A stretch of DNA of 64,000 nt from Sphingopyxis sp. PAMC25046 (GTDB lineage: Bacteria; Pseudomonadota; Alphaproteobacteria; Sphingomonadales; Sphingomonadaceae), in NCBI RefSeq assembly GCF_004795895.1, contig NZ_CP039250.1, positions 558,001-622,000 of the forward strand, in the 5' to 3' direction. The notes beneath the pieces were generated by a model. That model ran no database searches, was not told where the DNA came from, and saw nothing but the letters and a program-made list of their open reading frames with translations. This document shows positions 40,244 to 58,499 of the stretch, piece after piece; within the stretch, counting starts at the first letter, position 1; every line of letters starts with the position of its first letter. The position numbers were made by a program, and so were the translations under genes.

Positions 40244-41166
40244 CGAATATTTCCTGCAATGATGCCCGCAATCTCGTCGGCGTCGAACGGGCGGAGGTCG
40301 TCGATGGTTTCGCCGATGCCGATCGCGTGGATCGGAAGCCCGTGGCGCTCGGCGGCGGACACGAGCACCCCGCCGCGCGCGGTGCCGTCGAGCTTGGTCA
40401 TGACCAGCCCCGTAACCCCCGCGACCTCGCGGAACACGTCGATTTGCGACAGCGCATTCTGCCCCGTCGTCGCGTCGAGCACGAGCACGACATCGTGCGG
40501 CGCGGCGGGGTTGAGGCGGCCGAGCACGCGCTTGATCTTGGCGAGTTCGTCCATCAGTTCGCGCTTGTTCTGCAGCCGCCCGGCGGTGTCGACGATCAGC
40601 ACGTCGATCCCCGTCGCGGTCGCCTGCTTCACCGCATCGAACACGATCCCTGCGCTGTCGCCACCTTCGGGCCCCGCCATGATCGGCACGCCGAGCCGCT
40701 CGGCCCAGACCTTGAGCTGGCCGATCGCCGCGGCTCGGAAGGTATCGCCCGCGACGAGCATCACGCCATAATCCTGTTCCTGGAACAGATGCGCGAGCTT
40801 GGCGATCGTCGTCGTCTTGCCCGACCCGTTGACCCCGATCACGAGGATGACCTGCGGGCGCGGGAAGGCGTCGATGTCGAGCGGCTCGGCGACCGGGCGC
40901 AGCACGGCGGCGATCTCCTCGGCGACGATCTTGCGCAACTCCTCGATCCCGCCCGCCACCGCATCGCGCCGTGCCGCGAGGCGCTCGCGGATACGCGCGG
41001 CCATTGCCGGGCCGAGGTCGGCGGTGATCAGCGCCTCCTCGATCCGGTCGAGATCGTCCTCGTCGAGCCGCGCCTTGCCGGTCAGCCCGGCCAGATTTTC
41101 CCCGAGCCGTTCCGACGTGCGGCGAAATCCGCCGAGCAGCCTTTCGCTCCAGCTTTGGCCGGTCAT
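40240..41166 (-). CDS. ftsY: Signal recognition particle receptor FtsY
   Basis: A 308-residue SRP-receptor GTPase that docks ribosome-SRP complexes at the membrane. N domain: about 1-90 (GKARLDEDDLDRIEEALITA). G domain: GVNGSGKTTTIAKLA (P loop), DTFRAAAIGQL, DTAGRLQNKRELMDEL, TKLDGTARGG. The acidic A domain of E. coli FtsY is almost absent, as is usual in alphaproteobacteria. The start at 41166 overlaps the mtaB stop (ATGA). Its partner ffh is encoded about 4 kb away in the opposite direction. Confidence 0.95.
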   Translation of the reverse strand: MTGQSWSERLLGGFRRTSERLGENLAGLTGKARLDEDDLDRIEEALITADLGPAMAARIRERLAARRDAVAGGIEELRKIVAEEIAAVLRPVAEPLDIDAFPRPQVILVIGVNGSGKTTTIAKLAHLFQEQDYGVMLVAGDTFRAAAIGQLKVWAERLGVPIMAGPEGGDSAGIVFDAVKQATATGIDVLIVDTAGRLQNKRELMDELAKIKRVLGRLNPAAPHDVVLVLDATTGQNALSQIDVFREVAGVTGLVMTKLDGTARGGVLVSAAERHGLPIHAIGIGETIDDLRPFDADEIAGIIAGNIR

Positions 41167-42479
41167 GCGGCGATGTCCTTTTCTGCGATTGGGATTGCGA
41201 CCAGGCGGTCGCCGTCGCGCGCGAAGAGGCGCACGTCGATAATAGTGCCGGGGGCCGCGGGCGCGGTCAGCGTCACGGCGGCAAAATTTTCGGCGTGGCC
41301 GGTCGAGCCGTCGCGCTCGACGAGCATCGATGCGGTCCGGCCGGTTTGGGTATCGAGCCAATCCTGCCGCCGCCGCGTATTGGCTTCGCGCAGCGTCGCC
41401 GCACGTTCGCGTGCAACCGTGCGGCCGACCTGCGGCATCCGCGCGGCGGGCGTCCCGGCGCGCGGGCTGTACGGAAAGATGTGGCCGAAAACGATGTCGC
41501 AATCGTCGATCAGCGCCAGCGAGTTGGCGAACATCGCGTCATCCTCGGTCGGAAAGCCCGCGATCAGGTCGGCGCCGATCGCGATGTCGGCGCGCGCCGC
41601 CTTCAAGCGCTCGGTCAGGCGCACCGCATCGGCGCGGCGATGGCGCCGCTTCATCCGCGTCAGCACCATATCGTCGCCAGCTTGCAGCGACAGGTGGACA
41701 TGCGGCATCACGCGCGTCTCCTGTGTCAGCAGCGCGAACAGCGGATCGTCGATCCGGTCGGGGTCGAGCGACGAGAGGCGGAGACGCTCGACCGGCAGCG
41801 CCAGCAGCGCTTCGACCAGCGCCGCAAGGTTGGTGCCGCTGTCGTCGCCATAGCTCGCAAGGTCGACCCCGGTCAGGACGATCTCGCGCTGCCCGCGGTC
41901 GAGCGCGGTGCGCGCGGCGGTCAGGACATCCTCCATGGTTGCCGAGCGCGCGGTGCCGCGCGCGAGCACGGTCGCGCAGAAGGTGCAGCTGTGCGAGCAG
42001 CCGGTCTGCACGCCGAGAAACGCCCGCGCATGGTCGGCGCCCGAGAGGGCGGGGGTGTAGGAAGGGCGGGGTTTCGACAAGCTCAGCCCGAACGGAGAAT
42101 TTGAGGTCGCTTTCCCCAACTCCGTTCGCCCTGAGATTGTCGAAGGGCCGTTCTTTTCCTGTTCGAAGCGATAGCTCTCGGGCAAACCCTTCGCGTCATT
42201 GGACACTACCCGCGCGCCCATCGCAGCAAACGCCTCGCGTTCCAGCTCCGCCGCGCACCCCGTCACGACAACTTCGGCGCCCGGCCGCTCGCGCAAGCTC
42301 CGGCGCACGGCCTGTCGCGCCTGCCGCACTGCCTCGTCGGTCACCGCGCAGCTGTTGAAAACGATCGTGTCGCGCGCACCCGCGGCCTCGACGGCGGCCC
42401 GGATGGCCTCGCCCTCGGCGATATTCAGCCGGCAACCGAAATTGACGACCTGCTGGCGGTCGGCGGGGGCTGCGCTCAT
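41163..42479 (-). CDS. mtaB: tRNA (t6A37)-methylthiotransferase MtaB with repeat-derived insertion
   Basis: A 438-residue radical-SAM enzyme that adds a methylthio group to t6A at position 37 of ANN-decoding tRNAs. The N-terminal MTTase domain has Cys16 (NFGCRLN), Cys44 (FNSCAVT) and Cys75 (VTGCAAE) for the auxiliary cluster. The radical-SAM CxxxCxxC is Cys161-Cys165-Cys168 (CSHSCTFC). A TRAM-like end is present (TVTLTAPAAPGTIIDVRL-like). Residues about 104-147 (containing SPFGLSLSKPRPS) are encoded by a palindromic repeat (42073-42144) in a loop just before the SAM motif. The frame is intact, so a functional gene is likely. ATGA overlaps with dapF and ftsY. Confidence 0.92.
   Translation of the reverse strand: MSAAPADRQQVVNFGCRLNIAEGEAIRAAVEAAGARDTIVFNSCAVTDEAVRQARQAVRRSLRERPGAEVVVTGCAAELEREAFAAMGARVVSNDAKGLPESYRFEQEKNGPSTISGRTELGKATSNSPFGLSLSKPRPSYTPALSGADHARAFLGVQTGCSHSCTFCATVLARGTARSATMEDVLTAARTALDRGQREIVLTGVDLASYGDDSGTNLAALVEALLALPVERLRLSSLDPDRIDDPLFALLTQETRVMPHVHLSLQAGDDMVLTRMKRRHRRADAVRLTERLKAARADIAIGADLIAGFPTEDDAMFANSLALIDDCDIVFGHIFPYSPRAGTPAARMPQVGRTVARERAATLREANTRRRQDWLDTQTGRTASMLVERDGSTGHAENFAAVTLTAPAAPGTIIDVRLFARDGDRLVAIPIAEKDIAA
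42073..42144. repeat. Dispersed palindromic repeat family A, in frame inside mtaB
   Basis: Arms 42073-42097 and 42120-42144 are 25 nt each and reverse-complementary with 3 mismatches. They carry TTCGACAA-CTCAG and CCGTTCG elements shared with the copy at 323-413. The element lies wholly within the mtaB reading frame and its length keeps that frame. Confidence 0.85.
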
Positions 42480-47348: not shown

Positions 47349-47840
47349 ATGAACGCCGATCGTCCTGTCACCCTCGCCGCCATCGCCGGCGCGCACGGGG
47401 TGCGGGGCGAGGTGCGTTTGAAGCTATTTGGCGAAGGCGCGGAGGCTCTCCGCGCCTTTTCCGTTTTCGATGCGGGGGATCGCAAACTGACCTTGAAGTC
47501 GGTGCGCCCCGCCAACCAGGGCGCGGTCGCGACCTTCGCCGAAGTCACCGACCGGAGCGCCGCAGAGGCGCTCCGCGGCACTGTCCTCACCGTCCCGCGC
47601 TCGGCGCTGCCCGCCTTGGGCGAGGGCGAATATTATCACCACGACCTGATCGGCCTGCCATGCGTCTCCACCGACGGCCAGGCCATTGGCCATGTCGCCG
47701 CGGTCGAAAATTTCGGCGCGGGCGACATCCTCGAAGTCGAGAAACCGGGCGGCAAACGCTTCATGGTCCCGATGACCGCGCAGGCGGTGCCGGCTTGGAA
47801 CGCCGACGGCGTGACCGTCGACGCGGCGTTCGTCGAGTAA
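47349..47840 (+). CDS. rimM: 16S rRNA processing protein RimM
   Basis: A 163-residue ribosome maturation factor that binds S19 and helps assemble the 30S head. N domain: AAIAGAHGVRGEVRLKLFGE (about 10-29); PRC-barrel C domain: YYHHDLIGLPCVSTDGQAIG, DILEVEKPGGKRFMVPM and AVPAWNADGVTVDA. Directly after rpsP (6-nt gap) as usual. In most bacteria trmD follows at once; here a repeat and three unrelated genes intervene (47841-50821). Confidence 0.94.
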   Translation: MNADRPVTLAAIAGAHGVRGEVRLKLFGEGAEALRAFSVFDAGDRKLTLKSVRPANQGAVATFAEVTDRSAAEALRGTVLTVPRSALPALGEGEYYHHDLIGLPCVSTDGQAIGHVAAVENFGAGDILEVEKPGGKRFMVPMTAQAVPAWNADGVTVDAAFVE

Positions 47841-47864
47841 CGCCGCTGTCCCATTTTTCGTCGT

Positions 47865-47928
47865 CCCGGACTTGATCCGGGATCCATTTTTCCCGCGCTG
47901 CGACAATGGACCCCGGATCAAGTCCGGG
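47865..47928. repeat. Dispersed palindromic repeat, family C
   Basis: Perfect 17-bp arms, CCCGGACTTGATCCGGG (47865-47881) and its reverse complement (47912-47928), extendable to 24 nt with one mismatch. A second copy with the same arm sequence lies at 58384-58448. It occupies the gap just after rimM. Confidence 0.85.
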
Positions 47929-47998
47929 TGACGATTGTCTTTGTCGCTGATTGCCGGTGCCCCCCGGCGCTGTTAGCTTGACGGCGATTGGAGGGACT

Positions 47999-58316: not shown

Positions 58317-58383
58317 CGCGTCGCTGTTGCACGAAAATGTGACAGAAGGAAAGGGGGGGCTCTGCGACGCCTCTCGGTCGTCA

Positions 58384-58448
58384 TCCGGACTTAATCCGGG
58401 ATCCACTGGCTCGACGTTTGCTTGAATGGACCCCGGATCAAGTCCGGG
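58384..58448. repeat. Dispersed palindromic repeat, family C (second copy)
   Basis: Arms 58384-58405 and 58427-58448 (22 nt, 3 mismatches) with the family C core ATCCGGGATCCA and CCCGGATCAAGTCCGG, as at 47865-47928. It fills most of the gap between amn and the peroxiredoxin gene. Confidence 0.85.
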
Positions 58449-58499
58449 GTGACGATGAAATGGGAAGGCAGCGCGGCAGCGCGCCGCCCTCCCCCATGA

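Follow-up and report, generated by a model that had tools for sequence, protein, structure and literature searches.

REP elements are usually regarded as extragenic, and REPINs, the RAYT-mobilised REPs, consist of two inverted REP units and a spacer and are dispersed in the genome. Repeats within genes are also on record. In the coding-region parts of the survey by Di Nocera et al. (2013, PMC3733652), intragenic CGTC and GTAG REPs often add 20–30 residues to the encoded protein, S. alaskensis and E. litoralis are reported to have REPs in their genes for tRNA pseudouridine synthase B, and in two species of Xanthomonas roughly one and the same position in recB is occupied by different REPs; tolerance in flexible linkers or loops is argued there for such REPs, and CGTC REPs are said to be without a dedicated transposase. 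Rickettsia palindromic elements (RPEs), as presented in the portions of PMC10969869 that treat them, are dispersed palindromes lying in frame in protein-coding genes, about 150 bp long as first reported.

Here we describe a REP dimer lying in frame in mtaB of Sphingopyxis sp. PAMC25046. In the initial annotation it was taken for a dispersed palindrome in a tolerant inter-domain loop, working like an RPE, and our results support this reading. The features needed below are as follows; positions are those of the window, the whole 64,000-nucleotide stretch of DNA that was analysed.

41163–42479, minus strand: mtaB, tRNA t6A37 methylthiotransferase, 438 amino acids (TIGR01579 best match, Pfam UPF0004 and Radical_SAM, open frame).
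42060–42170, minus strand: variable loop, residues 104–140 (RFEQEKNGPSTISGRTELGKATSNSPFGLSLSKPRPS), mostly a family-A REP dimer (comparison with 72 Sphingopyxis loops).
42122–42153, no strand assigned: A unit 1, the 5′ one in the mRNA, with the plus-strand sequence CCGTTCGCCCTGAGATTGTCGAAGGGCCGTTC (unit list, covarying stem).
42097–42121, no strand assigned: inter-unit spacer, 44 nt from core to core (identical distance in 13/13 Sphingopyxis A loops).
42060–42096, no strand assigned: A unit 2, 3′ in the mRNA, in the orientation opposite to unit 1 (inverted-repeat search, unit list).
41976–42059, minus strand: conserved intact stretch after the loop, residues 141–168 (YTPALSG..LGVQTGCSHSCTFC; alignments and mtaB frame).
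323–413, no strand assigned: the other A dimer in the window, with its units in the usual arrangement, X (repeat search).

In the profile search, the window MtaB scored 350.9 against TIGR01579, slightly below the cut-off of 357.05; with this insert-bearing protein falling short of the curated cut-off, the loop may also disturb annotation. UPF0004 covers residues 10–87 and Radical_SAM residues 157–323 (Pfam), and C16, C44, C75, C161, C165 and C168 were invariant in 47 aligned sequences. The initial annotation had the frame kept and the flanking motifs intact, in agreement with these cysteines and with the reading frame of the window, which is open and intact. A frameshift or a pseudogene was rejected because of the open frame, the invariant cysteines and a flank dN/dS of 0.15–0.20. 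From the sequences, we infer that MtaB proteins whose loop is filled by a repeat are active.

The inverted repeat in mtaB has arms of 36 nt (42062–42097 and 42120–42155; 78% complementary) with a gap of 22 nt. Their inner 25 nt (42073–42097 and 42120–42144) pair with three mismatches, and these are the arms that had been reported initially. At up to three mismatches, the core of the repeat, TTCGACAAGCTCAG, occurred 20 times in the window, compared with 4.84 expected and a maximum of 10 in 100 shuffles. The 4.5-Mb genome contains 17 exact and 17 one-mismatch copies of this core; at up to two mismatches, it has 131 sites versus 69 for the reversed pattern, showing that many of the weaker matches are due to chance. 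The A units of this genome mostly read CCGTTCG-stem-GAGCTTGTCGA loop-stem-CCG. Among 21 such units, 12 have C-G and 7 have G-C as the first stem pair, and 10 have C-G and 6 have T-A as the second; these compensatory changes indicate a hairpin of the REP type. A chance palindrome was rejected on the copy excess over the shuffles and the reversed pattern and on the covarying stems. Thus, family A has the properties of a REP family, being a short hairpin unit in many dispersed copies that form inverted pairs around a spacer. The window contains just two A dimers, in mtaB and at 323–413; that the latter is a copy of the same dispersed repeat, as claimed initially, holds, except that its two units are arranged oppositely.

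Family A resembles REPINs in its inverted units, spacer and dispersal. It differs from them in that PF01797 (Y1, RAYT-type transposase) had no match at E≤0.001 in the window's genome (a control search was positive in 5 of 14 known genomes), in lacking the GTAG tag, and in having a copy inside a gene; having neither tag at the unit end, it is also unlike the CGTC/GTAG superfamily. An Rfam scan assigned no family to the repeat at the gathering score and found only a tRNA in the window. Long ORFs were listed for 21 loci of A copies in the same genome, and ten of these ORFs were scanned against Pfam; seven were without any domain, and in the other three the element precedes the domain.

We then compared the loops of 72 Sphingopyxis mtaB genes, assigning classes by eye. 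Thirteen loops contained A, 16 contained the repeat designated family B in the orientation B+, 7 contained it in the orientation B−, 5 had B with a long spacer, 5 had remnants (of A or B) and 26 were empty, with a plain linker of 10–16 residues; the empty class includes L102, in which a B-like stretch is present. Accordingly, 46 of the 72 loops carry an insert or a remnant, and 28 of them belong to family B (both orientations and the long-spacer form taken together), which is CGTC-like and unrelated to A. The 72 genes were drawn from 80 genomes of the genus: three (G065, G067 and G075) were left out as having no clear MtaB, four (G012, G044, G058 and G074) as distant, with loops that are plain by eye (L105–L108), and G022 because a contig break at the insert divides its mtaB, although its A repeat was still detected. 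The G022 assembly breaks at the mtaB repeat, where the contig ends are L083 (start of G022:C4) and L084 (start of G022:C15); filled mtaB genes may be fragmented or missing in short-read assemblies.

An A or B core at up to two mismatches was present in 43 of 71 distinct loops, compared with 0.25 per shuffled set. REP-derived peptide motifs occurred in 81 of the best 120 MtaB homologs. Read by eye, the loop peptides are of the window type (NGASTSSART..PFALSLSKG), come from other repeats (SPRRRGPISGG..GDGPLPSQGH, PREGGGPSP..MGPRLRGD), or form a short linker. The family B hairpin reads GTCCCCGC-GAAG-GCGGGGAC-CCA with a degenerate tag, and it may be a CGTC-1 REP, resembling the text description of that type in PMC3733652 (8-bp stem, 4-nt loop, CCA tail, CGTC or TGTC tag). 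Family B had matches at E≤0.001 in 70 of the 80 genomes, the best ones about 84 nt long with the interior included; the genome of the window has only two weak matches. B− and B+ loops are 88–95% identical as reverse complements over 84–96 nt, compared with 74–80% on the same strand. Two B remnants (L085 and L099) have 48 nt, and five of the seven B− loops have 108 nt. By eye, L034, L037, L062 and L063 contain additional sequence within the resident repeat. In L034 (mtaB of G070), a 28-nt palindrome, GTGTCGGGAGTCACGTGCCTCCCGACAC, takes the place of a portion of a B hairpin. No alignment could be made between empty and filled loops, and hence neither a target duplication nor an exact junction was seen.

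These comparisons modify the initial picture in two respects. The insert had been placed at residues 104–147; the loop itself is confirmed, but it ends at residue 140, as the PALSG that follows is conserved. A single insertion, visible as a clean gap in relatives, had also been expected, whereas the relatives carry A, an unrelated repeat either way round, remnants, or a linker of 10–16 residues. A segment conserved in MtaB generally was rejected, because the loops differ among relatives in Sphingopyxis, in the family and at other named loci. Nor did we see the segment conserved in homologs devoid of the genomic repeat, the case that would have spoken against an insertion: the segment is exchanged, and yet A looks old in the genus.

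Elsewhere in the family, the inverted repeat of the linker beat every control window of the same gene in 13 of 40 loci, or in 8 of 35 when five loci with long matches were set aside. The 40 loci are mostly one per genus, from the best-scoring of 249 genomes searched; G153, G304, G278 and G321 had been added for their long matches, G220, the best of its genus, also has a long one, and all five were positive. Among the 13 positive loops are A-like units in several frames (FVPSEVEG, AEPVEARG) and the B-like EIPAFAGMTD. The loop of L114 contains a third family, D, whose arms recur in G107 (62 match rows, with both strands counted and an approximate query). Two more loops no more than tie with their control windows: L134, with yet another frame of A (ELVEGR), and L143, which is D-like by eye. 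Among the named loci outside Sphingopyxis, 1 of 33 (L202) is REP-like by eye, and the pattern thins outside the genus. Outside the family but within the same class, none of 20 linkers exceeded all control windows (11 of them chosen as the longest; 289 genomes searched). In L236 (G432, another family of the class), the linker SSRQSEATRDL..DSSTTLGMT is REP-like by eye, unsupported by the inverted-repeat score.

We consider an old in-frame insertion of family A into a tolerant inter-domain linker, with later turnover and the enzyme kept, to be probable. A family-A REP dimer, two inverted hairpin units of about 32 nt, would have entered mtaB in frame before or early in the Sphingopyxis radiation, at a site that would be a flexible linker between the MTTase and radical-SAM domains. 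REP insertions in genes are presumably mostly selected against; the linker would accept almost any in-frame peptide, so that insertions there could survive. Later in the genus, A would have been lost, shrunk, rearranged, or replaced by a family B dimer in either orientation, with deletions shrinking the inserted repeats; in further genera, the equivalent loop holds A-like, B-like and D repeats. The enzyme itself evolves under purifying selection, and the inserted peptide drifts.

Insertion could instead be targeted, with REPs guided to the loop by some feature of the nearby DNA or by a REP already there that serves as a landing pad; we regard this as unlikely. Different families in both orientations in one short stretch of several genera, as judged by eye and by the inverted-repeat score, would be expected of such targeting, as would the further sequence seen by eye within the resident repeats of L034, L037, L062 and L063. 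The 26 empty loops, however, have no common target sequence by eye, and the window's genome has no match to the RAYT family. The MiaB homologs, which have the identical two-domain order, bear on this question in two ways. A REP-peptide motif was found in 0 of 120 of them, against 81 of 120 MtaB homologs, a contrast that also favours our main reading, the motif list having been drawn up after the MtaB loops were read and the MiaB set extending past Sphingopyxis (for instance, to Sphingobium). The absence from the corresponding linker speaks for targeting to MtaB, but the MiaB linker is better conserved among the 20 homologs listed and may not tolerate insertion. A stronger form, in which the MtaB loop is a docking site to which unrelated REPs are directed and where the resident REP is exchanged via a hairpin-dependent process, seems to us similarly doubtful; if true, one codon window would be an exchangeable cassette slot that rewrites the linker peptide with the enzyme unharmed. 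We infer that tolerance rather than targeting makes the loop a hot site.

In 46 loci, 39 unit cores occurred in 3,885 nt of loops versus 5 in 188,167 nt elsewhere. All five non-loop cores lie 1.18–1.25 kb upstream of the loop; this is farther out than the dapF start, which in the window lies at a distance of 1,112 nt.

Under the favoured account of insertion and tolerance, the arrangement of the A units bears on the age of the A insert. With a strict pattern, we found 746 A dimers of the X arrangement in 60 of the 80 genomes, compared with 7 of the inside-out Y arrangement in 7 of the 80. Five of the Y dimers are in mtaB (G011, G013, G022, G037 and G063), and the window mtaB dimer is a Y with one mismatch, and hence outside this count. 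The two elsewhere, the only such dimers by the strict pattern in the 80 genomes, are at G014:C1:3656017-3656088 and G018:C14:89434-89506. In all 13 A loops, the cores are exactly 44 nt apart (with 7 mismatches in the left core of L062), and the spacers are 42% identical versus 25% when shuffled. The common spacer length, together with the otherwise rare inside-out arrangement, suggests that family A in mtaB probably goes back to a single old insertion, which subsequently disappeared or gave way to other repeats. A single A insertion needs 16 losses on the mtaB tree (an uncollapsed count, with remnants taken as A and the root at L104); old polymorphism or gene exchange could also account for the scattered A. 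Synonymous divergence was lower in the loops than in the flanks, 0.16–0.28 versus 0.34–0.42 for B and 0.35 versus 0.44 for A; this difference, clearer in B, fits later arrival or homogenisation of B.

To follow the turnover, we used an IQ-TREE maximum-likelihood tree of the flanks of the 72 mtaB genes, with the loop excluded; 28 of its 69 inner branches were starred and 23 were open. The seven loop states required 33 changes on this tree (mean of 40.9 for shuffled labels), A/B/empty required 22, and filled/empty 14; parsimony does not distinguish gain from loss in these counts. A tree of the neighbouring genes, built from sequence beyond mtaB only (46 loci matched, 3 too short, 43 used), gave 22 changes for the seven states and 17 for A/B/empty. 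Loop labels were somewhat clustered on the trees, with equally low counts in 0 of 200 and 3 of 200 shuffles, as expected under descent. When only the changes forced by starred branches are counted, the number is lower: empty, B+ and A have 8 each, B− has 4, B long has 3 and B remnants have 2. Starred sister sets of mixed state are, for instance, L046 (A), L058 (B+) and L061 (B−); L059 (B+) and L063 (A); and L031 (A), L032 (B+), L037 (A) and L080 (empty).

Such a distribution could also result from a few old loop alleles (A, B+, B− and empty) being swapped among species by homologous recombination, with few insertions; this, too, has a rather low probability in our estimate. The 13 A loops, probably of one origin by their 44-nt distance and spacer identities, are scattered on both trees, as exchange would predict. 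Pairs of the same class, however, were not significantly more alike than expected in any of the 13 windows compared along the flanks (best z 1.4; 21 of 200 permutations equally high), a test that exchanged tracts shorter than about 30 nt would escape, and joint exchange of loops and flanks is unsupported as the main account. In addition, B is dispersed genome-wide in many of the genomes, making fresh insertion available.

The loop and the enzyme around it evolve differently. The flanks had a dN/dS of 0.15–0.20 in the filled classes and 0.28 in the empty class, whereas the loops had 0.64 for A (10 of 13 loops used), 1.05 for B+, 0.73 for B−, 0.78 for B long and 0.69 for empty ones. The enzyme flanks are under strong purifying selection, and the insert changes nearly neutrally. 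In a structure model based on 47 sequences (mean pLDDT 64.7), residues 111–140 had the lowest pLDDT, 25–28, and the conserved residues 141–180 were likewise low, at 35–43; the predicted floppiness gives weak support to a flexible loop. That the insert is kept for a function, as an mRNA hairpin in the coding region or as a useful linker peptide, is very improbable: folding of the insert-region RNA is more stable than that of shuffled sequences (z −2.87; an equally low value in 1 of 200), 46 of 72 loops carry an insert or remnant, and dN/dS is below 1 in A, B− and B long loops (0.64–0.78), but palindromes fold well regardless of use, 26 of 72 loops are empty, the peptide is wholly different between classes, and dN/dS is 1.05 in B+ loops and 0.69 even in empty ones.

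The mtaB insert, regarded as an in-frame insertion into a tolerant linker, can now be set beside the known intragenic repeats. It resembles the intragenic CGTC/GTAG REPs in that short palindromic dimers lie within genes, but the cases covered in the consulted parts of PMC3733652 are unlike a loop with many swaps between unrelated families and orientations in 72 Sphingopyxis genes. The terms mtaB, miaB, methylthio and Sphingopyxis (in full) are absent from the main text of that paper, and its supplementary list may include mtaB. The insert is similar to RPEs in mode, an in-frame insertion in a conserved protein, which is what was compared rather than the sequences; it differs in the host and in that the loop of one gene swaps families. 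Beyond the two-species recB case, the searched literature, which most subscription papers lie outside of, yielded no example of REPs being swapped repeatedly at a single loop. Likewise, mtaB, methylthiotransferase and palindromic were not found together, and nothing closer on coding palindromes or on repeated same-site insertion was found; among the literature text matches listed (titles and starts of abstracts), the two 14-letter cores were absent and no such repeat was described. Repeats within genes are known; many swaps of unrelated repeats at one protein loop would be new. Needing between 17 changes (A/B/empty on the tree of 43 records) and 33 (seven states on the tree of 72 genes), and with empty, filled, decayed and rearranged loops in close sisters, the mtaB loop is a natural series for measuring insertion, deletion, replacement and peptide neutrality.

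A REP can also stay put in a tRNA-modification enzyme. The truB gene of the same genome (L252:1501-2457; G000:C1 around 715350-716063) contains a REP dimer in frame, whose sequence (RHPGLDPGSR..GTPDQVRGDE) is of yet another type. Of 120 TruB homologs, 115 were parsed; the segment has 65 or 66 amino acids in 95, and a motif of the loose list was present in 101. In the 30 homologs listed, one REP type lies at the same place with no swapping, so the truB repeat is like the mtaB insert in being an in-frame REP dimer in such an enzyme and unlike it in its constancy.

The window also contains two dimers of the CCCCGGACTTGATCCGGGG type, at 47861–47932 and 58380–58455, both intergenic by the ORF lists; the former starts about 21 nt past the stop of the ORF ending at 47840.
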